This document shows positions 50,815 through 64,000 of a DNA stretch of 64,000 nucleotides, one piece after another. Origin of the DNA: Demequina pelophila (GTDB lineage Bacteria; Actinomycetota; Actinomycetes; Actinomycetales; Demequinaceae). Where the stretch lies: NCBI RefSeq assembly GCF_000971175.1, contig NZ_BBLY01000004.1, positions 368,298-432,297 of the forward strand, written 5' to 3'. The notes beneath the pieces were generated by a model, which did not search any database, had not been told where the DNA came from, and saw nothing but the letters and a program-made list of their open reading frames with translations. Each line of letters opens with the position of its first letter. Positions within the stretch are counted from its first letter, which is position 1. The position numbers and the translations under genes were made by a program.

Positions 50815-50847
50815 GACAGTTCGTGCGGCGGCGCCGACAGGTTGTGC
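50815..50847. promoter_or_regulatory. operator pair 1 of the GH3 island
   Basis: Two 12-bp boxes in direct orientation, GACAGTTCGTGC (50815-50826) and GACAGGTTGTGC (50836-50847), 21 bp apart. The same spacing occurs at 54.2 and 60.9 kb. TTGACA at 50862 lies downstream. The gap 50773-51040 holds no gene. Confidence 0.7.
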
Positions 50848-51040
50848 GCGGGGCGGGACCATTGACACGTGTCTCGCAATGATGTGTCCGTCGGTGCCAC
50901 ATCGTGGCGGTGCCGGTGTTTGTACAACGCAGTCCGAACAACATCTGACACGGGTCGGCCCGTCACCCCACTCGCACTTCGCCCTCTGCGGTGCTGTGCG
51001 CGGGGGCGGAGGGCCGGCGCGCGCTCAGCAAGGAGTCATA

Positions 51041-54022
51041 GTGAGTACCAAATCGGCTAAGAAGCCGCCGATGTCCAACAAGAAATACCTGTCCATCTGG
51101 ATCCCGATCACGGCCTTCCTCACCATCCTCGTGGTGGGCGGCAACATGGCCCTGAGCGTCTGGGGCGGCTGGGTCAACACCGTCCTGGGTGACGGCACCT
51201 ACGAGATCACCCCCGCCGAGGGCACCGAGGACTGGGACACCGACTACAACAAGTCGTCCTACGACTCGTACGACGACCTCAAGGCGGACGCCGACGTCGT
51301 CATCCAGAAGCTCGTCTCCGAGGGCGCGGTCCTCGCGAAGAACGAGGGCGCGTCGCTGCCGCTGACCTCGGGCGCGAAGATCACGATGCTCGGCCGCACC
51401 TCGGCCGACCCGGTCTACGGTGGCGCGGGCTCGTCCTCGATGGACAACTCGGCCAACGTCAACGCGTACGAGGGCCTGGCCTCGGCCGGCTTCGACATCA
51501 ACGACACCGCGTACGCGATGTTCGAGAAGTTCGCGACCGACCACGCCGACCCGAACGGCGAGTTCGGCCGCGGCTACATCACCATGGACGACCCGTCGAC
51601 TGCCACCTACGGCATCGGCGAGATGCCCGTCGAGATGTACTCCGACGAGGTCACCGCCTCGTTCTCCGAGTACTCCGACGCGGCCGTCGTGGTCATCGGC
51701 CGTCCGGCCGGTGAGGGCGGCGACCTGACCCAGGACATGATCAACGTGGTCAACACCGCCGGCGTCGACTCGCGTGCGCTCGAGGGTGAGCACCAGCTGC
51801 AGCTCAACCAGGACGAGCGCGACATGATCGAGCTCGCCAAGGCGAACTTCGACAACGTCGTGGTCCTGGTCAACGCCTCGACCTCGATGGAGCTGGGCGA
51901 CCTGCACGACGACGCGGACATCGACTCGATCGTCCTCATGGGCGGCCCCGGTGCCACCGGTTACCACGCGATCGGCCAGCTCCTCGTGGGTGCGACCAAC
52001 TTCTCCGGTCACACCACGGACCTGTGGGCGCGCGACTTCTCGGCCGACCCGACCTTCGTCAACTTCGGCCACTTCCAGTACGACAACGTGAACTCGCCCA
52101 CCGGCGTCGGCACGTTCGTCCAGTACGAGGAGGGCATCTACTTCGGCTACCGCTACTACGAGACCGCTGCGGTCGAGGGCTTCATCGACTACGACGAGGC
52201 CGTCGTGTACCCGTTCGGCTACGGCCTGTCGTACACCGACTTCTCCTGGGAGATCGCCGGCCACGACTTCGGTGGCGTCGACGGCGAGATCTCCGTGGAC
52301 GTGACCGTCACCAACACCGGTGACGTCGCGGGCAAGGACGTCGTCCAGCTGTACTACTCGGCCCCCTACACCCCGGGCGGCATCGAGAAGGCCCACGTCG
52401 TGCTCGGTGACTTCGCCAAGACCGGCGAGCTCGCCCCCGGCGCCTCGGAGACCGTCACCGTGACGTTCGCCGTCGAGGACATGGCCTCGTACGACTACAA
52501 GAACGAGAAGGCGTACGTGCTCGACTCGGGCGAGTACCAGATCCTGGTTCAGCAGGACTCGCACCACCTCGCGGAGGGCGTTGAGGCGCTCACCTACGAG
52601 GTCGACGACACGATCGTGTTCTCGGGCGACAACACCCGCGCCACGGACGAGCAGCCCGTCACCAACCTCTTCGACGACGTGAACGTCATGTTCACCGACG
52701 TCGCCGAGGAGGGCAAGGCTCTCAACATGACGCGTGCCGACTTCGCCGGCACCTTCCCGACCGCTCCCGAGGGCGCGGACTTCGTCGCCACCGACGAGAT
52801 CGTCGCGGACTTCGAGCGCTTCGACTCGGCCGCTGCCGCGGCCGCGTTCGAGGGCGAGATGCCCGTCACCGGTGCGGACGGCGGCCTCCAGCTGGTCAAC
52901 CTCCGTGGTCTCGACTACAACGACCCGCTGTGGGACGAGCTGCTCGACCAGCTCACCGTCGAGGAGATGACCTCGGTCATCCTCAACGGCGCGTACAACA
53001 CCGCCGCGATCGAGTCCATCGCGAAGCCCGCGACCGTCGACCTCGACGGCCCGCTCGGCTTCTCGTCGTGGCTGAACGACTTCTACAACGGCGTGCCCTA
53101 CCCCACGCCGTACCTCATCGCGCAGACCTGGAACGTCGACCTGCTGGTCGAGCAGGGCGAGATGCTGGGCGAGGAGTCGCTCTTCCTGGGCAACAACGGC
53201 TGGTACGCACCGGGCGTCAACATCCACCGCTCGCCCTTCGCGGGCCGTAACTTCGAGTACTACTCGGAGGACCCGTACCTCTCGGGCGTGCTCGCCCGCG
53301 AGGTGTCGAACGGCACCATGAGCAAGGGTCTGTACACCTTCATCAAGCACTACGCCGTGAACGACCAGGAGACCAACCGCGTCGCCAACGGTGTCGCCAC
53401 CTGGGCGAACGAGCAGGCCATGCGCGAGATCTACCTCAAGGCCTTCGAGATCCCCGTCAAGGAGGTCGTCGGCGAGGTTCCCTTCATCGCGGATGAGGAC
53501 GGCACCTGGGCCACCGCCGAGGTGGGTCAGACCGCCATCATGAGCTCCTTCAACCGCGTGGGCTCCGTGTGGGCCGGCGGCTCGATCCCGCTCATGGACA
53601 CCGTCCTGCGCGGCGAGTGGGGCTTCGAGGGTGAGGTCATCACCGACTTCAACGCGAACGAGTACATGTACCCGGACATGGCCGTCGAGGCCGGCTCGGA
53701 CATCATGCTCACGTTCGAGCCCTGGAAGCAGCTCGATGACGTGAGCTCGGCCTGGGCGGTCACGAACCTGCGCGAGTCGATCCACAACATCCTGTACGCG
53801 ACGGTGAACTCCAACGCCATGAACGGGATCGCGCCGAACTCGACGGTCACGATCATCGCTCCGGAGTGGCACCTGTACCGCTGGATCATCACCGCGGCGC
53901 TGAGCCTCGGCATCGTCGGCCTCGTCGGCATGATCGTCGTGCGCGTCCGTCGCCACGGCTCGTCGGTGCCGGTCGCCGAGGTGACCGAGTCCGACGCCCC
54001 GAAGGCGCCGGCCGGCGTCTGA
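51041..54022 (+). CDS. double-membrane-anchored GH3 glycosidase with permuted domains (paralogue 1)
   Basis: A 993-residue protein from GTG 51041 (AAGGAG upstream). A basic cytoplasmic end precedes helix 1 (about 18-40). The usual GH3 C-terminal sandwich comes first (AKNEGASLPL, IGRPAGEGGD with the candidate acid/base Glu), then an Fn3-like domain (YPFGYGLSYTDF, VTNTGDVAGKDVVQLYYSAP). The TIM barrel comes last (LDGPLGFS, GRNFEYYSEDPYLSG, IKHYAVNDQETNR, nucleophile Asp in EVITDFN). Helix 2 (about 945-965) and an Arg tail end it. Reversed order is known in some clostridial and other GH3 enzymes; the two anchors are noteworthy. Substrate not predictable. Confidence 0.9.
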   Translation: MSTKSAKKPPMSNKKYLSIWIPITAFLTILVVGGNMALSVWGGWVNTVLGDGTYEITPAEGTEDWDTDYNKSSYDSYDDLKADADVVIQKLVSEGAVLAKNEGASLPLTSGAKITMLGRTSADPVYGGAGSSSMDNSANVNAYEGLASAGFDINDTAYAMFEKFATDHADPNGEFGRGYITMDDPSTATYGIGEMPVEMYSDEVTASFSEYSDAAVVVIGRPAGEGGDLTQDMINVVNTAGVDSRALEGEHQLQLNQDERDMIELAKANFDNVVVLVNASTSMELGDLHDDADIDSIVLMGGPGATGYHAIGQLLVGATNFSGHTTDLWARDFSADPTFVNFGHFQYDNVNSPTGVGTFVQYEEGIYFGYRYYETAAVEGFIDYDEAVVYPFGYGLSYTDFSWEIAGHDFGGVDGEISVDVTVTNTGDVAGKDVVQLYYSAPYTPGGIEKAHVVLGDFAKTGELAPGASETVTVTFAVEDMASYDYKNEKAYVLDSGEYQILVQQDSHHLAEGVEALTYEVDDTIVFSGDNTRATDEQPVTNLFDDVNVMFTDVAEEGKALNMTRADFAGTFPTAPEGADFVATDEIVADFERFDSAAAAAAFEGEMPVTGADGGLQLVNLRGLDYNDPLWDELLDQLTVEEMTSVILNGAYNTAAIESIAKPATVDLDGPLGFSSWLNDFYNGVPYPTPYLIAQTWNVDLLVEQGEMLGEESLFLGNNGWYAPGVNIHRSPFAGRNFEYYSEDPYLSGVLAREVSNGTMSKGLYTFIKHYAVNDQETNRVANGVATWANEQAMREIYLKAFEIPVKEVVGEVPFIADEDGTWATAEVGQTAIMSSFNRVGSVWAGGSIPLMDTVLRGEWGFEGEVITDFNANEYMYPDMAVEAGSDIMLTFEPWKQLDDVSSAWAVTNLRESIHNILYATVNSNAMNGIAPNSTVTIIAPEWHLYRWIITAALSLGIVGLVGMIVVRVRRHGSSVPVAEVTESDAPKAPAGV

Positions 54023-54085
54023 CGGTCCTGAGGAGGGGTGGCGGGCCGGCCTCGGCCGTCCCGCACCCGCCTCGGGGAGTCTCTG

Positions 54086-54131
54086 AGGCCCCGCCTCTTC
54101 ACCCCACCTTGGGAGTGCAGAGGCGGGGCCT
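54086..54131 (+). terminator. terminator after GH3 paralogue 1
   Basis: AGGCCCCGCCTCT and AGAGGCGGGGCCT form a perfect 13-bp stem with a 20-nt loop, followed by TTGCTTGTTCTT. Confidence 0.75.
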
Positions 54132-54208
54132 TTGCTTGTTCTTGATTCATCCTTTTTGGTCCCGCGCGCCCCAAAGGTCACGGCCGGATAACGGACATCC
54201 CGGGCCGC

Positions 54209-54241
54209 GACAGAGTATGCACACCAGGTGACAGGTTGTGC
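54209..54241. promoter_or_regulatory. operator pair 2 of the GH3 island
   Basis: GACAGAGTATGC (54209-54220) and GACAGGTTGTGC (54230-54241), again 21 bp apart in direct orientation, 243 nt before the GH3 lipoprotein start. The gap 54023-54483 contains the terminator and this operator, no gene; a nominal open frame across it has no start signal. Confidence 0.7.
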
Positions 54242-54483
54242 CGCCTCCGGCCGCACCGGCTGCGCCCGTTGGTGTGATGAGACCCGGCGCACACACCCCC
54301 GCCGCCACCGTGCCAACGACGACCCGGACGATGACTCGGACGACGACGTTCACGGCGACTGAGGGGGATGCGTGTTGTCCGACATCACACACGCTCGAGG
54401 GTCTTCACCGGCATCGCTGCCAGCGGTGGCCCTCGGGGGGCATCCCGCCCGGGACCGCCCGGAACAGGAATGAGGAGACCTTG

Positions 54484-56877
54484 TTGAAGAACAAGAAGTC
54501 GATGGGCGCGCTGGCGTTCGTCGGGCTCGCAGCGATGACGCTCGCGGGCTGCACGGGACAGAGCGAGACCGAGGAGACCACGTCGGCCGGCGCCCCGCAG
54601 GAGCAGCCGACCGACGCCTACGTGACCCACGAGGCCACCGACGGCAAGACCACCTTCACCGTGGTCACCAACCCGGGCGACGGCCCGGTCCTCTCGTACG
54701 GCGCTGACAGCGATGTCACGCTGCTCGAGGAGGAGATCGACGGTGCGACCTACGCGTTCAAGGACATGAACGGCAACGGCGAGCTGGACGTCTGGGAGGA
54801 CTGGCGCGTCGAGGCCACCGAGCGTGCCGCGGACCTCGCGTCGCAGATGTCGATCGAGCAGATCGCGGGCCTGATGCTCTTCAGCTCGCACGAGTCGTCG
54901 CCGCAGGACGGACTCACCGACAACCAGAAGACCTACCTGTCGGAGTCGCACCTTCGCGCGGTCCTCAACGCGGCCGGCTCGGACGCCGAGCCCACCGTCA
55001 AGTGGGTCAACGAGATGCAGGCCTACGTCGAGTCCCTCGCGACCGACGACGCCGTGTACGTGCCCGTCAACTTCGCCTCGGACCCGCGCTCGACCGCCGG
55101 CTCCGGCGGCTACAACGCCGCGGGCGAGGACATCTCGCGCTGGCCCTCCAACCTGGGTCTCGCGTCGACCTTCAACGTCGAGCACACCGAGAACTTCGCG
55201 GAGATGGCCTCGGCCGAGTACCGCGCGCTGGGCATCACCACCGCGCTGTCGCCGCAGGTCGAGCTCGCGACCGAGCCCCGCTGGCTGCGCGTGGGCGGCA
55301 CCTTCGGTGAGGACCTCGACCAGGCCACCGAGCTCACCCAGGCCTACACCGATGGCTTCCAGGGCTCCGGCGGCACGGACGAGTGGGGCTCGGAGTCCGT
55401 CAACGGCATGATCAAGCACTGGGCCGGCGACGGCCCGGGCGAGGGCGGCCGCGAGGGCCACACCTACGTGGGCAAGTACGGCGTCTACCCGGGCGACAAC
55501 TTCGACGAGCACCCCGAGGTCTTCCTCGGCGCGCTCAACTCGTCGGCCGTCATGACCGCGTACTCGATCGCCCTCGACGGCGACGGTGAGCCGCTCTTCA
55601 CCGACCGCACCGGCACGGCGTACGACGCCGACCGCATGGCGATCCTCCGTGAGGAGAACAACTACGACGGCGTCATCGTCACGGACTGGGGCGTCATGAG
55701 CGGCTCCAACGACGAGGGTGCCTTCTTCGGCATGGCGTGGGGCGCGGAGGACCTGACCCCCGCCGAGCGCTACGTCAAGGTGCTGGGCACCGGCCACGAC
55801 ATGTTCGGTGGCGTCAACGACGCGACCTACATCCTCGAGGCCGCCGAGCTCTGGCAGGACCTCTACGAGGCCGGCGACCTCGAGATCGACGCGGAGACCC
55901 GCTTCCAGGAGTCGGGCGCCCGCATCCTCTCGATGTTCTTCAACCCGGGCCTGTACGAGAACGCGTTCCTCGACCTCGACAACTCGCTCGAGGTGCTCGC
56001 GTCCGAGGACAAGGTTGCCGCCGGCTACGCGGCGCAGCTCGACTCGATCGTCATGCTGAAGAACGACGGCGAGACGATCGCCGCCGGCGAGGCCGGCGAC
56101 TGGTCGGACAAGACGGTCTACATCCCGCAGTCGTACGACCTCGGCATGCCCGGCCTGTTCGGCCCCGGCACCTACACCCACGGCCCGACCATCGACATCG
56201 AGACCGCCGAGCAGTTCTTCGCCGCCGTGGTCACCGACGAGGTCGAGCTGGACGAGAACGACCAGGTCGTCTCGTACACCGCCCCCGACCTGTCCGACGT
56301 GGACCTCGTCCTGGTCGGCATGGACTCGCCGTACAACGGCGACATCTTCAGCGCCTCGGGCCACGACTCGGAGACCGACGAGTGGTACCCCTTCTCGCTC
56401 CAGTACCGTCCGTACACCGCTGACGGCGAGAACGTCCGCCAGGTGTCGATCTCGGGTGACATCCTCGAGGACGGCACCAAGGAGAACCGCTCCTACTTCG
56501 GCAACACCTCGCGGATCTCGAACGAGGCCGACCTCGACGCGTTCGAGCGCGCCGTGGACGCCGTCGAGGCGTCGGGCAAGGACATCCCGGTGATCACCGC
56601 CCTCAAGGCGATCAACCCGGTCGTCCCGGCCGAGTTCGAGGCCGACTCCGACGCGATCCTGGTCAGCTTCGGCACCAACGACCAGGCGATCATCGAGGTC
56701 GCGCTGGGTCTGCACGAGCCGGCCGGCCGCCTGCCGATCCAGTTCCCCGCCGACATGGACACCGTCGAGGCGCAGTTCGAGGACGTCGCCAAGGACATGA
56801 CCCCGTACACCGACGCCAACGGCAACGCGTACGACTACGGCTTCGGCCTCAACTACTCCGGCCCCATCGCCGGCTGA
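54484..56877 (+). CDS. GH3 family glycosidase lipoprotein
   Basis: A 797-residue lipoprotein. AGGAGACC lies before two adjacent TTG codons (54481, 54484); the second has better spacing. The signal peptide ends in LAGC (Cys about 20). After a Thr/Glu linker comes an EF-hand-like loop (DMNGNGELDVWED), then the canonical GH3 order: barrel with IKHWAGDGPGEGGREG and nucleophile Asp in GVIVTDWG, then the C-terminal sandwich (MLKNDGE, LVGMDSPYNGD, FGTNDQAIIEVALGLHEPAGRLPIQFP). It would act on the outer face of the membrane, presumably as an exo-glycosidase of the beta-glucosidase type. Confidence 0.9.
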   Translation: MKNKKSMGALAFVGLAAMTLAGCTGQSETEETTSAGAPQEQPTDAYVTHEATDGKTTFTVVTNPGDGPVLSYGADSDVTLLEEEIDGATYAFKDMNGNGELDVWEDWRVEATERAADLASQMSIEQIAGLMLFSSHESSPQDGLTDNQKTYLSESHLRAVLNAAGSDAEPTVKWVNEMQAYVESLATDDAVYVPVNFASDPRSTAGSGGYNAAGEDISRWPSNLGLASTFNVEHTENFAEMASAEYRALGITTALSPQVELATEPRWLRVGGTFGEDLDQATELTQAYTDGFQGSGGTDEWGSESVNGMIKHWAGDGPGEGGREGHTYVGKYGVYPGDNFDEHPEVFLGALNSSAVMTAYSIALDGDGEPLFTDRTGTAYDADRMAILREENNYDGVIVTDWGVMSGSNDEGAFFGMAWGAEDLTPAERYVKVLGTGHDMFGGVNDATYILEAAELWQDLYEAGDLEIDAETRFQESGARILSMFFNPGLYENAFLDLDNSLEVLASEDKVAAGYAAQLDSIVMLKNDGETIAAGEAGDWSDKTVYIPQSYDLGMPGLFGPGTYTHGPTIDIETAEQFFAAVVTDEVELDENDQVVSYTAPDLSDVDLVLVGMDSPYNGDIFSASGHDSETDEWYPFSLQYRPYTADGENVRQVSISGDILEDGTKENRSYFGNTSRISNEADLDAFERAVDAVEASGKDIPVITALKAINPVVPAEFEADSDAILVSFGTNDQAIIEVALGLHEPAGRLPIQFPADMDTVEAQFEDVAKDMTPYTDANGNAYDYGFGLNYSGPIAG

Positions 56878-57024
56878 AGCGCCCCGTGACCCGGGTGGCG
56901 GGCGGCAGCGCCTCCCGCCACCCGGGCACCCCGGGCCGGATCCCCGCGATGCGGGTTTCGGCACATCCCCGCCTTACCATTGCCGCCGGACAATTCGACG
57001 GCAGATCCACGTGAAGGAGAAGAC

Positions 57025-57429
57025 ATGTTCAACAACAAGGTGCGCGCCGCCGGCCTCGCTCTGCTGCTCGCCGCGGGCGGCTCGTTCGCCCTCACCGGCT
57101 GCGCGGGCGACGACTCGTCGGCCGAGGCCGCCGTCGAGGTCGCGGACGTCGACGTGGCGACCGACCTCGAGACCGCCCGCCAGGCCGTCCTCGACGCGCT
57201 CGCGGACGACGACTGGGCCCAGGTCATGCTGGCCTCGGACGTCGAGGGCCCGACCGTCAAGTACGGCCTCATGGTGATGCCGTTCGTCAAGACCGACGCC
57301 GCCTCGCGCGTCACCGGCACGGTCGACATCGTCGACGGTGACCAGTTCAAGATCGAGGCCGACTCGGCCGAGACCGGCACCACCTGGCAGATCGACCAGG
57401 ACGGCACCATCACCGAGGTCGCCGAGTAA
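57025..57429 (+). CDS. small lipoprotein of unknown function
   Basis: A 134-residue protein with signal peptide and lipobox ALTGC (Cys about 26), then an acidic domain of about 105 residues containing TARQAVLDALADDDWAQVMLASDV and VDIVDGDQFKIEADSAETGTTW. It resembles no family I recognise. AAGGAGAAGAC precedes the ATG. It lies between the GH3 lipoprotein and GH3 paralogue 2 on the same strand, probably in one transcript, and may be an accessory sugar-binding or stabilising factor; that is inference from position. Confidence 0.75.
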   Translation: MFNNKVRAAGLALLLAAGGSFALTGCAGDDSSAEAAVEVADVDVATDLETARQAVLDALADDDWAQVMLASDVEGPTVKYGLMVMPFVKTDAASRVTGTVDIVDGDQFKIEADSAETGTTWQIDQDGTITEVAE

Positions 57430-57474
57430 CACCCGGCACCACCCTCGTCCTCTCCGGACCCTGGAGGGGCTCGT

Positions 57475-57492
57475 CCGGCCGGCAACGGCCGG
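57475..57492 (+). terminator. short GNRA hairpin after the small lipoprotein
   Basis: CCGGCCG and CGGCCGG enclose a GCAA tetraloop. Stem of 7 bp only, so read-through into the next GH3 gene is plausible. Confidence 0.4.
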
Positions 57493-57640
57493 GCGGGCCC
57501 CCTTCCCGGGAGAGTCGGCCAGGGCACTCGCAGCGTCATCGCCGACGCCTCGCCTCCGGTGAGCGCGCCGCCCCGCTGCCACGGGGATCCACAGCGGTCC
57601 CGGTAGATCCCCATTCATCAGTTTCTGAAGGAGCACTGCA

Positions 57641-60637
57641 GTGAAGTCTCGTCCGTCCACGGACGACGCGCCGAAGAAGGCGCGGATGTCCAACAAGAAG
57701 TACCTGGCGATCTGGGTGCCGGTGATCGCGTTCCTGACGGCGCTCACCGTCATCGCGAACATGGCCCTGGTGATCGCGGGCGGCTGGGTCGCCTCGCAGC
57801 TGGGCTCCGGCACCTACGAGTTCACCAACTCGCCCGAGTCCGAGAACTGGGACACGAACTACTACGAGTCGGACTTCGCCGACATCGACGAGGTCAACGC
57901 CGCGGCCGAGGCTCTCGTCGAGGAGATCGCCGCCAGCGGCATCGTCCTCGCGAAGAACGACAACGCGGTGCTCCCGCTCGACGCCGGCGCGCAGCTGACC
58001 ATGCTCGGTCGCGCCGCCGCGGACCCGGTCTTCGGTGGCTCGGGCTCCGGCTCGGTCGACACCCACTCCGCGGTGACCGCGCGTGGCGGTCTCGAGAACG
58101 CGGGCTTCTCCATCAACGAGAGCGTCTACGACGCGATCGCGGAGTACGCGGCCGAGAACAAGCGCGGCCACGTCTCGATGGACGACCCGATGGGCTCGAC
58201 CTACACGATCGGCGAGATGCCCGTCGAGGGCTACGAGGCGCAGTCCTCGACCTTCGCGCAGTACGACGACGCGGCCGTCATCGTCATCGGCCGTCCCGGC
58301 GGTGAGGGCGGTGACCTCGCGAAGGACATGCTGGACATCGCGAACTCGGACAACATCGACCCGCGCGCCCAGGAGGGTGAGCACCAGCTCGAGCTCAACC
58401 AGGACGAGAAGGCGCTGATCGCCCTCGCCAAGGAGAACTTCGACACCATCGTCGTCGTGGTCAACGCCTCCACCACCATGGAGATGGGCGACCTGCAGAA
58501 CGACCCCGAGATCGACGCGATCCTGCTCGCCGGCTCGCCCGGCGCGACCGGCTTCAACGCGCTCGGCTCGATCCTCAACGGTGACGTCAACCCCTCGGGC
58601 CGCACCGCGGACCTGTGGGCCGCCGACTTCACCGCGGACCCGACGTACGTGAACTTCGGCGACTACCGCTACACCAACCTGTCGCCCAGCTACCCCGTGC
58701 CGGTCGCCGAGCGCACCAACGAGTACGACTACGCCCCGTTCGTCAACTACGCCGAGGGCATCTACTACGGCTACCGCTTCTACGAGACCGCTGCGGTCGA
58801 GGGCTTCATCGACTACGACGAGGCCGTCGTCTACCCGTTCGGCTACGGCCTGAGCTACACCGACTTCGCGTGGGACGTGGCGAACGTCGACGCGGGCGAC
58901 GTGGACGGCACCATCGCCGTGACCGTGGACGTCACCAACACCGGTGACGTGGCCGGCCGCGACGTGGTCGAGCTCTACTACTCGGCCCCCTACACCCCGG
59001 GCGGCATCGAGAAGTCGGCCGTCGTGCTCGGCGGCTTCGCCAAGACCGGCGTGCTCGAGCCCGGCGCCTCGGAGACGGTCACCATCGAGCTGACCGTCGA
59101 GGACATGGCGTCGTACGACTACCAGAACCACCAGGCGTACGTGCTCGAGGCCGGCGACTACCAGATCACCGTCCAGACCGACTCGCACACCCTCGCCGAG
59201 GGCGCCGAGCCCTTCGTCTACACCGTCGCCTCCGACGTCGTCTTCTCGGGCGACGACCACCGCGCGTCGGACCTGACCGAGGTCACCAACCTCTTCGACG
59301 ACGTCTCTGAGGCGTTCACCACCACCGGCGAGGCCGGCAAGATCCAGCTCATGTCGCGTGCGGACTTCGCGGGCACCTTCCCGGTCGAGCCCACGGGCGA
59401 CATGCTCGTCGCGAACGACGCCGTGATCGAGGGCTTCGCGCCCTACGACTACGAGGCCGCGGCCGAGGCGTTCGAGGGCGAGATGCCCACCACCGGCGCC
59501 TCCTCCGAGCTCGCGCTCATCGAGATGCGCGGTCTGGCCAAGGACGACCCGCAGTGGGAGACCCTGCTCGACTCGCTCACGGTCGCCGACATGTCGTCGA
59601 TGCTGCTCAACGGCGCCTACAAGACCGAGGGCATCGCCTCGATCGCCAAGACGGCCACGATGGACCTGGACGGCCCCGCGGGCTTCTCCTCCTTCCTCGA
59701 CTCCTCCGTCAACGGCACCGCCTACCCCTCGGAGGCGCTCATCGCGCAGACCTGGGACCTCGAGATCGGCGCCAAGATGGGTGTCATGCTCGGCAACGAG
59801 GCGCTCGAGAAGGGCATCTCCGGCTGGTACGCGCCGGCGGTCAACCTGCACCGTTCGCCCTTCGCCGGTCGTAACTTCGAGTACTACTCGGAGGACCCGT
59901 TCCTCTCGGGCGCGCTGCTCACCGCCGTCGCCAACGGCATCGGCACCAAGGGTGTCTACACCATGGTCAAGCACTACGCGCTGAACGACCAGGAGGACAA
60001 CCGCATCGCCAACGGCGTCGCCGTGTGGGCCGACGAGCAGACCATCCGCGAGATCTACCTCAAGCCGTTCGAGATGGGCGTCAAGAACATCACGATGGAC
60101 GTCAAGTACATCTCGGACGACCAGGGCACCGTGTCGGAGACGACCATCGGCGCCATGGGCATCATGAGCTCCTTCAACCGCGTGGGCGCCACCTGGGCCG
60201 GCGGCTCGAAGGCGCTGATGAACGATGTGCTGCGTGAGGAGTGGGGCTTCGAGGGTTACGTCATCTCGGACTTCAACCTCTACCCGTACATGAACCCCAA
60301 CCAGTCGATCGACGCGGGCACCGACCTGACGCTGACGCTGGCGCCCATGAAGACCTTCCACGACTCGACGTCGGCCAAGGCGGTCACGGACATTCGCAAC
60401 GCCACGCACAACGTGCTCTACGCGGTCGCGAACTCCAACCTGACCAACGGCATGGCGCCGGGCGCGACGGTCACGTACACCCCGCCCATGTGGGTCTACA
60501 TCCAGATCATCACGACCGTCGTGGTGGGCCTCGGCATCGTCGGCCTCATCGGCATGGTCGCGGTGCGCGTGCGCCGCAACCGCGGCGGCGTGCCGGTCGC
60601 GGAGGTCACGGAGACCAAGGTCACCGAGACCGTCTGA
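57641..60637 (+). CDS. double-membrane-anchored GH3 glycosidase with permuted domains (paralogue 2)
   Basis: A 998-residue paralogue of the 51041-54022 product with the same layout: basic N-end and SNKKYLAIWVPVIAFL helix, sandwich with IGRPGGEGGD, Fn3-like part, barrel with LDGPAGFS, GRNFEYYSEDPFLSG, VKHYALNDQEDNR and nucleophile Asp in GYVISDFN, then a C-terminal helix and VRVRRNRGGVPVAEVTE tail shared with paralogue 1. GTG 57641 follows GAAGGAGCA. Some stretches are identical in DNA to paralogue 1 (50 nt at 58781-58830), indicating recent duplication or gene conversion. No 21-bp-spaced operator precedes it, so it probably reads from the upstream unit. Confidence 0.9.
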   Translation: MKSRPSTDDAPKKARMSNKKYLAIWVPVIAFLTALTVIANMALVIAGGWVASQLGSGTYEFTNSPESENWDTNYYESDFADIDEVNAAAEALVEEIAASGIVLAKNDNAVLPLDAGAQLTMLGRAAADPVFGGSGSGSVDTHSAVTARGGLENAGFSINESVYDAIAEYAAENKRGHVSMDDPMGSTYTIGEMPVEGYEAQSSTFAQYDDAAVIVIGRPGGEGGDLAKDMLDIANSDNIDPRAQEGEHQLELNQDEKALIALAKENFDTIVVVVNASTTMEMGDLQNDPEIDAILLAGSPGATGFNALGSILNGDVNPSGRTADLWAADFTADPTYVNFGDYRYTNLSPSYPVPVAERTNEYDYAPFVNYAEGIYYGYRFYETAAVEGFIDYDEAVVYPFGYGLSYTDFAWDVANVDAGDVDGTIAVTVDVTNTGDVAGRDVVELYYSAPYTPGGIEKSAVVLGGFAKTGVLEPGASETVTIELTVEDMASYDYQNHQAYVLEAGDYQITVQTDSHTLAEGAEPFVYTVASDVVFSGDDHRASDLTEVTNLFDDVSEAFTTTGEAGKIQLMSRADFAGTFPVEPTGDMLVANDAVIEGFAPYDYEAAAEAFEGEMPTTGASSELALIEMRGLAKDDPQWETLLDSLTVADMSSMLLNGAYKTEGIASIAKTATMDLDGPAGFSSFLDSSVNGTAYPSEALIAQTWDLEIGAKMGVMLGNEALEKGISGWYAPAVNLHRSPFAGRNFEYYSEDPFLSGALLTAVANGIGTKGVYTMVKHYALNDQEDNRIANGVAVWADEQTIREIYLKPFEMGVKNITMDVKYISDDQGTVSETTIGAMGIMSSFNRVGATWAGGSKALMNDVLREEWGFEGYVISDFNLYPYMNPNQSIDAGTDLTLTLAPMKTFHDSTSAKAVTDIRNATHNVLYAVANSNLTNGMAPGATVTYTPPMWVYIQIITTVVVGLGIVGLIGMVAVRVRRNRGGVPVAEVTETKVTETV

Positions 60638-60644
60638 ATCTGAT

Positions 60645-60715
60645 CGGCGGGGCCGCCACCGCGGCCCCGCCGGCACCCTCGAGGGCCCCCGCTCCCACCG
60701 GAGCGGGGGCCCTCG
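60645..60715 (+). terminator. tandem hairpin terminator
   Basis: Two consecutive perfect hairpins, 60645-60656/60661-60672 (12 bp) and 60680-60695/60700-60715 (16 bp), both with CACC loops, directly after the GH3 stop. Confidence 0.75.
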
Positions 60716-60864
60716 TCCCATGTCCGGGGACGGGCCGCGACAACGGCGTGTCGCCTGGAAAGGGACGATGCGCGGGCCGGGGGAGGGTCCGAGGCGCCAG
60801 GCTTTCCTCGGGCCGGCGGTGGCTCCGTCCCGCGCCCCTCGACGGGCCGTTTCCACGGGCCCGC

Positions 60865-60897
60865 GACAGGTTGTGGCCCGCACGCGACAGGTTGTGC
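60865..60897. promoter_or_regulatory. operator pair 3 of the GH3 island
   Basis: GACAGGTTGTGG (60865-60876) and GACAGGTTGTGC (60886-60897), 21 bp apart, 166 nt before the next GH3 start. This is the most symmetric copy of the box pair. The gap 60638-61062 contains the tandem terminator and this site, no gene. Confidence 0.75.
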
Positions 60898-61062
60898 CGG
60901 GGCCCCATTTCAGGCGCGAGCGCGATGCCTACGATGACGCATCGCCACCACGCAGCCGTGGGGGCGGAACCGTCACAACGACGTCACGACAATTCACTGC
61001 CAGGCGCTGCATGCGGCCTTCCGGGCCGCGCGGCACCTGCACACCGACGCGAAGGATCCATC

Positions 61063-63507: not shown

Positions 63508-64000
63508 ATGTCCACCATCACCGCCGCGCTCGGCAAGCTCTGGGCGCCCGTGGCGCGCCTGTGGAAGAACTTCGAGACCAAGCGCCCCACCACCGCGCAG
63601 TTCCTCATGTTCTTCCTGCTCAGCAACGGTGTCACCGTGCTGCAGCTGGTGCTCATGCCGGTCATCAAGAGCTGGTTCTACAACACCGACCTGGTCAACA
63701 CCGCGTTCCAGATCTGGCCCGTGGGCTCCAACCTCGACGGCTCGCAGTACTACATCTTCGACTACCCGGCCGGCCCCGTGGACGCGGACGGCATGGGCGG
63801 CGGCCTCGCGTACTTCCTCGCGGTGCAGATCACCATCGCCATCGCGCAGGTCATCAACTTCTTCGCCCAGCGCTCCATCACGTTCAAGGCGAACAACTCG
63901 ATGGCGAAGGCCGCGTTCTGGTACGTCATCGCCTACATCCTCATCACCATCGGTGCGGCGGCCGCGCAGGGCTTCTACAAGGTCCCGATCTACTCGTTCT
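63508..64000 (+). CDS. GtrA-like membrane protein, cut by window edge
   Basis: The gene starts at ATG 63508 with GAGGGGAA upstream and is open to the window edge (164 codons). Helices are visible at about 33-53 (AQFLMFFLLSNGVTVLQLVL), 99-117 and 134-152. QVINFFAQRSITFKA matches the hallmark of GtrA-type membrane proteins (NF-x2-QR-x2-TFK). The extracytoplasmic loop (about 60-98) is longer than in typical GtrA. GtrA relatives are linked to transfer of lipid-linked sugars across the membrane. Co-transcription with the GH3 gene before it (12-nt gap) suggests a shared role in glycan metabolism; the exact function is unknown. Confidence 0.6.
   Translation, partial: MSTITAALGKLWAPVARLWKNFETKRPTTAQFLMFFLLSNGVTVLQLVLMPVIKSWFYNTDLVNTAFQIWPVGSNLDGSQYYIFDYPAGPVDADGMGGGLAYFLAVQITIAIAQVINFFAQRSITFKANNSMAKAAFWYVIAYILITIGAAAAQGFYKVPIYSF

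Follow-up and report, generated by a model that had tools for sequence, protein, structure and literature searches.

Paired boxes with a 21-bp period before GH3 genes of Demequina pelophila, the probable operator of an AgrA-like LytTR two-component system

Introduction

LytTR regulators are best known from the control of virulence, competence and bacteriocin genes, and they bind 9-bp repeats lying 12 bp apart (PMC4064291, PMC2766830); for SilA, the repeats measure 10 bp and the spacer 11 bp, and position 10 is invariably a G (PMC2766830). Most LytTR promoters in the cited part of a further study have 9-mers 12 bp apart with the repeat 10 bp before the -35 element (PMC6193735), which places the repeat about 33 bp from the -10 element. 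The present work concerns a stretch of 64,000 nucleotides from the actinomycete Demequina pelophila (assembly GCF_000971175.1, contig NZ_BBLY01000004.1, positions 368,298 to 432,297, forward strand; hereafter the window), in which three pairs of 12-bp boxes precede genes of glycoside hydrolase family 3 (GH3), named GH3a to GH3d in their order along the strand. The boxes are very probably the operator of an AgrA-like LytTR two-component system that activates the units GH3a, GH3b-GH3c and GH3d-GtrA-GT2 and, probably, an esterase gene.

The system resembles AgrA, ComE and SilA in that the regulator combines a receiver with a LytTR domain and is partnered here by a GHKL kinase, and the operators agree in their direct repeats of 9-10 bp, the 21-bp period, the roughly 33 bp that separate the repeat from the -10 element and the G at position 10; it is unlike them in the genes concerned, which are GH3, GtrA/GT2 and esterase genes here and virulence, competence and bacteriocin genes there. 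The repeat itself, ACAGGTTGT, is absent among the repeats in the cited part of PMC6193735, many of which resemble ACCACTTAT. The LytTR Regulatory Systems (LRS) HdrRM and BrsRM of Streptococcus mutans likewise join a LytTR regulator to repeats, mostly 12 bp apart, before the promoter, and the same passages describe their regulators as devoid of the phosphorylation aspartates, partnered by a membrane inhibitor and autoregulating (PMC6193735); unlike these, the system in Demequina has a receiver domain with Asp57 and a GHKL kinase, and a box pair stands before the regulator gene in one genome of 20. The nearest case found is a Firmicute polysaccharide locus, gpPUL Ros-7 of Roseburia, for which a LytTR response regulator and a histidine kinase are listed (PMC5320581); it differs in its GH25, GH43 and GH51 genes and its ABC and GPH transporters, and the cited part of that paper gives no operator. 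The kind of switch is already known; a search of open-licence PMC papers gave no account of this regulon or of how widely it occurs.

From the architecture of the sites and the neighbouring genes we infer the following sequence of events. A membrane GHKL kinase and a LytTR regulator of the AgrA/ComE type, whose genes lie some 4-6 kb past the third site, would constitute the two-component system; the kinase would sense a signal and phosphorylate the regulator, probably at Asp57, and a dimer of the regulator would bind, on one face of the DNA, a direct repeat of two 10-bp half-sites (ACAGGTTGTG, separated by 11 bp), about 50 and 71 bp upstream of the predicted transcription start. The bound regulator would aid RNA polymerase at promoters that combine a -10-like hexamer with a poor -35 element, and would in this way switch on the putative operons GH3a, GH3b-GH3c and GH3d-GtrA-GT2, together with a further target elsewhere in the genome, probably a gene for a secreted esterase.

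Results

Operator pairs in the window

Computation established that the sites exist, are exactly spaced and are conserved; it also showed that in Demequina they co-occur with the regulator, and that they stand at a fixed distance from a -10-like hexamer. A preliminary description, made from the letters of the window, had reported three pairs of directly repeated 12-mers before GH3 units, found nowhere else in the window, and had read them as a shared operator. The period within each pair is indeed exactly 21 bp at the three loci, which all share the same downstream box, GACAGGTTGTGC (coordinates in Table 1); the term direct repeat is loose for the distal copies, which differ from this box by 2, 3 and 1 bases in operators 1, 2 and 3, respectively. 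The exact 12-mer has three matches in the window and the same three, with none besides, in the 2.68 Mb genome. The sites lie in the gaps before GH3a, GH3b and GH3d, at 194, 240 and 166 bp from the gene, respectively, and a pair scan with the matrix described below found no box pair in the gap upstream of GH3c. The spacers and 60-bp flanks of the three sites are dissimilar (13-24 of 60 positions identical), so that a recently copied promoter is not the origin of the sites. A fourth, weaker pair lies elsewhere in the genome, on the minus strand upstream of an esterase gene (PF00756; L015:1501-1531, corresponding to G000:C4:55341-55371, where G000 is the D. pelophila genome).

None of 300 windows generated by a first-order Markov model contained three 21-bp pairs sharing one downstream 12-mer, the maximum being two such pairs, reached in 28 of the 300; in the real window, such pairs reach four at spacings of 15, 20 and 25 bp, and the randomisation is not decisive. 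Since the in-window statistic is suggestive at most, comparison across genomes was needed. Among the matches set aside are one on the minus strand inside GH3d, conserved along with the coding sequence, and a recurring GCGATGTCGAACAGGTTGTG-like sequence in many genomes, taken as coding from its recurrence and from an open frame in genome G011. At G000:C11:493825-493855 and in similar places elsewhere, a recurring sequence judged to be coding mimics the proximal box and gives false matches.

Promoter geometry

A hexamer of the form TNNNNT starts 32-34 bp past the proximal 9-mer at 26 of the 28 Demequina sites and at 28 of the 34 sites from other taxa, compared with means of 2.2 and 2.9 sites (maxima 14 and 7), respectively, for other sets of three neighbouring offsets. 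At the three Firmicute sites the hexamers are TATAAT, TATATT and TATAAT, at 32, 32 and 33 bp, and G occupies position 10 of both half-sites in all 28 Demequina pairs. Repeat length, spacing and distance to the predicted -10 element fit the published LytTR promoters. A sigma-70 scan returned no promoter; it requires A at the second position of the -10 element and would miss the proposed hexamers, so that its result is not evidence.

The geometry of the sites relative to the -10 element favours activation. It is unlikely that the LytTR regulator binds these sites as a repressor and that the kinase signal relieves the repression, a mode of action with precedents in PlnD, which is called a repressor (PMC2714321), and in bsaA, which is described as derepressed once AgrA leaves the DNA (PMC4227749). 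The Demequina sites, however, precede the inferred -35 region, their distance being that of LytTR-activated promoters, whereas the bsaA site is placed downstream of its promoter (PMC4227749).

Regulator and kinase

The genome encodes a single LytTR protein, whose domain lies 5.7 kb from operator 3; its gene adjoins that of a GHKL kinase, and both are located 1.3-3.3 kb beyond the end of the window, which explains why the preliminary description missed the likely regulator. The protein consists of a receiver (Response_reg) and a LytTR domain, the latter aligning to AgrA (3bs1, 4xqq; E 7e-5). In an alignment of 12 of the 20 Demequina regulators, Asp57 is invariant (12/12), and the AgrA residues R198 and N201 correspond to R186 in 12 and to N189 in 11 of the 12 sequences, with the FFRCHNS motif mapped by eye. 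A predicted model of the regulator (pLDDT, the predicted local distance difference test, 83.9; pTM, the predicted template modelling score, 0.54) was not used as evidence. No match to the AgrB family (PF04647) was found in the genome, with a model that matches one of 14 control genomes and none over its cut-off.

The preliminary description had favoured a regulator of the AraC family binding two half-sites on one face of the DNA, an assignment that now appears very improbable. AraC proteins are able to recognise direct repeats with a period of about 21 bp, and the genome has three AraC-type (HTH_18) matches; these are located, however, on contigs C3, C5 and C11, with none on the contig of the window (C8), the sites are accompanied by a regulator gene of the LytTR type, and the length of the repeats, their spacing and their distance to the -10 element match published LytTR promoters.

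Conservation within Demequina

A LytTR gene is present in 20 of the 44 Demequina genomes, one in each, and the pair occurs upstream of the first GH3 gene of the locus in all 20 (17 in the matrix scan, and G060, G014 and G034 in other comparisons); nine of the 20 also have it upstream of GH3d. Comparison of the regions around the 19 other regulators with the D. pelophila locus revealed that the order of GH3 genes, GtrA, GT2, kinase and regulator is kept across Demequina, with extra DNA separating GT2 from the kinase in some loci; in G014 and G034 this amounts to about 7 kb, and eight loci have an esterase homologue between these two genes. In three loci, L068 (G026), L075 (G060) and L071 (G065), the frames of regulator, kinase or GH3 genes are broken, perhaps through sequencing errors in drafts, and in G027 (L077:17717, L099:9875) an extra GH3-like gene and the regulator gene are divergently oriented, and the interval separating them contains a paired box.

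Among 54 GH3 upstream regions, 27 carry the pair, each with 21 bp as the best spacing (25.9-41.0 bits), and the remaining 27 score at most 7.5 bits at any spacing from 13 to 30 bp. In each case, the matrix left out the genome under test; it derives from 28 Demequina pairs found at a spacing of 21 bp, so that the scan depends in part on that choice. Proteins like GH3c (at least 59% identity) occur in 20 genomes, with pieces in G060, which together make up the 20 LytTR-bearing genomes and G007; the next-best proteins elsewhere reach at most 45% identity. G007, scored as LytTR-negative, has three exact sites, all upstream of GH3 genes, and its contig stops inside the kinase gene. Exact matches to the pair pattern number 31 in 20 Demequina genomes, namely 18 of those with a LytTR gene, G007 and G006. 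In G026, pairs precede a homologue of the D. pelophila esterase (54% identity) and a GtrA-like gene (32%). A repeat in G030 was set aside because it lies inside an open frame, and so were the matches in G058 and in G001 (423466), near which no related gene was seen.

Sites in other taxa

The best 80 of 380 loci with relatives of the regulator were kept, 65 of them outside Demequina; in the flanks of the 80, many of which are short, GH3 was found in 67, the kinase in 79, GT2 in 44 and GtrA in 34. When the 65 non-Demequina loci were scanned with the Demequina matrix, 34 sites of at least 20 bits were found at a spacing of 21 bp, distributed over 28 loci, compared with 10 at the 28 other spacings between 12 and 40 bp; at thresholds of 23 and 26 bits, the corresponding numbers were 26 against 4 and 18 against 1. 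Thirteen of the site-bearing loci belong to Bifidobacterium, three to Tessaracoccus, two each to Oerskovia, Cellulomonas and Firmicute metagenome-assembled genomes (MAGs), and six are single cases (Xylanimonas, Pengzhenrongella, Sanguibacter, Schaalia, Actinomyces and Faecalibacterium). Downstream of the 34 sites, a GH3, GtrA or GT2 match starts within 600 bp in 29 and the regulator in one; no such gene was seen in the other four, two of which are at cut loci. In a MAG labelled Treponema (L125), genes for the regulator, the kinase and GH3c-, GH3d-, GtrA- and GT2-like proteins form one run, in which no site of 20 bits was found; this is either a transfer across phyla or a misbinned contig.

A pattern of Demequina and Bifidobacterium-like origin, applied to 396 genomes of the order, matched exactly in 34 (16 in the genus and 18 outside it), compared with one genome for the reversed control. 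GH3 or GtrA-like genes come next in 12 of 15 out-of-genus loci inspected, a set that excludes G056, G169, G240 and the second matches of G241 and G297. Taken with the regions in Demequina, these data bear out the expectation of the preliminary description that the 21-bp spacing would be kept in related upstream regions, and its idea of a shared operator of a GH3-centred regulon is upheld by the exact or strong matches preceding GH3 and related genes. That the boxes instead act in the transcripts as an RNA element, or are a promoter copied along with duplicated GH3 genes and served by no common regulator, is scarcely credible, since, related as the GH3 genes downstream in the window are, the boxes precede the -10-like element and thus fall outside the predicted transcript, the three sites differ in their flanks and spacers, and the pair also stands before unrelated genes (GtrA-like, esterase).

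Evidence against the proposed system

Several observations weigh against the operator and regulator proposed here. In D. pelophila, the single box with at most one mismatch is not enriched (12 matches, compared with 17 of the reversed control); when three mismatches are allowed, the degenerate pair pattern gives nine matches against six. Across the 44 Demequina genomes, the pair pattern with one mismatch yields 61 matches compared with 54 for the reversed control and matches nine of the 24 LytTR-negative genomes, and in a two-mismatch scan of 59 genomes, matches and reversed-control matches were each found in 16. As loose matches are about as frequent as those of reversed controls, the pattern is informative only when it is exact or in its locus position; the preliminary description had proposed a genome-wide scan as a check on random placement, and its outcome is divided in the same way, exact or strong matches preceding GH3 and related genes and loosened patterns behaving like the controls. 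The LytTR-negative genome G006 has an exact match, of the recurring coding type, and in G019 a site precedes a GtrA-like gene (31% identity), with no LytTR gene detected in the assembly of 230 contigs. For the esterase within the locus, 21 bp is the best spacing in four of eight genomes, and weakly so (13.6-25.2 bits). With regard to the regulator, AgrA S202 is replaced by C or P and H200 by N in the aligned sequences, and the single pair before the regulator gene itself (G017, 19.5 bits), in 20 genomes, means that general autoregulation is not seen.

Further points of this kind come from the other taxa. In 37 of the 65 non-Demequina loci no site reached 20 bits, and nothing related comes next at the sites of G387 and G403 and at one of the two sites of G241. 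A check for the LytTR gene in 42 of the 396 genomes, comprising the 18 out-of-genus positives and 24 unmatched genomes of genera g20 and g38, detected it in 16 of the 18 matched genomes, yet also in 12 of the 24 unmatched ones chosen, and G387 and G240 match in the absence of a LytTR gene. The assignment of genus g20 to Bifidobacterium relies on the letter identity between one of its sites and one in B. callitrichidarum. The Demequina and Bifidobacterium sites are related rather than independent.

Table 1. Half-sites, predicted -10 hexamers and genes at the locus (window positions unless a contig is named; PWM, position weight matrix score)
Feature	Position	Strand	Remarks
Operator 1, distal half-site GACAGTTCGTGC	50815..50826	+	PWM 16.7
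Operator 1, proximal half-site GACAGGTTGTGC	50836..50847	+	PWM 21.6
Predicted -10 hexamer TGATGT	50880..50885	+	34 bp after operator 1 proximal 9-mer
GH3a, permuted GH3 (GH3_C - Fn3 - GH3_N), hydrophobic segments near both ends	51041..54022	+	start codon by eye
Operator 2, distal half-site GACAGAGTATGC	54209..54220	+	PWM 13.4
Operator 2, proximal half-site GACAGGTTGTGC	54230..54241	+	PWM 21.6
Predicted -10 hexamer TGTGAT, TG one base ahead	54273..54278	+	33 bp after operator 2 proximal 9-mer
GH3b, one N-terminal hydrophobic segment, lipoprotein-like	54481..56877	+	start codon by eye
GH3c, permuted GH3, hydrophobic segments near both ends	57641..60637	+	no own operator found
Operator 3, distal half-site GACAGGTTGTGG	60865..60876	+	PWM 16.7
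Operator 3, proximal half-site GACAGGTTGTGC	60886..60897	+	PWM 21.6
Predicted -10 hexamer TACGAT	60930..60935	+	34 bp after operator 3 proximal 9-mer
GH3d, canonical GH3 without hydrophobic segment	61063..63495	+	
GtrA-like gene	63508..64000, continues past window end to G000:C8:432485	+	24.2 bits, cut-off 26.1 not reached
GT2 gene	after GtrA-like gene		outside window
GHKL kinase	C8:433585-434916	-	outside window
LytTR regulator	C8:434913-435623	-	outside window

Discussion

The function of the GH3 enzymes is assigned to the family level only: the top-scoring solved structures are named beta-glucosidases, and there was no hit above an NCBIfam equivalog cut-off. The hydrophobic segment near each end of GH3a and GH3c suggests that these two proteins are anchored in the membrane at both ends. 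The preliminary description had regarded the boxes as an undescribed signal for glycan use, and no earlier account of the signal was found in the open-licence papers mentioned above; glycan use as the role of the regulon is plausible, with the reservation that no sugar transporter is among the genes examined at the D. pelophila locus, the one genome covered in this respect. The GtrA-like and GT2 genes in the set suggest that glycans may be built as well as cut.

A wider reading, according to which the GHKL kinase, the LytTR regulator and the 21-bp operator form a phosphorelay cassette, shared across phyla, that remodels the glycans of the cell's own envelope, is less likely than not and is put forward tentatively. 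If it were true, the membrane-anchored permuted GH3 enzymes would trim what the GtrA/GT2 pair adds, and one operator grammar would extend from Demequina and the relatives of Cellulomonas to Bifidobacterium and gut Firmicutes.

In summary, the LytTR system at this locus, a type of regulation otherwise associated mainly with virulence, competence and bacteriocins, is a mark of genes for glycosidases and glycosyltransferases across many actinomycetes, Bifidobacterium among them, and a few Firmicutes of the gut. The operator is defined well enough to be searched for and tested, and the system provides a candidate regulator and candidate promoters, ready for reporter fusion, for GH3 genes of whose control the papers searched gave no account, as well as a handle on the signal that the kinase would sense.

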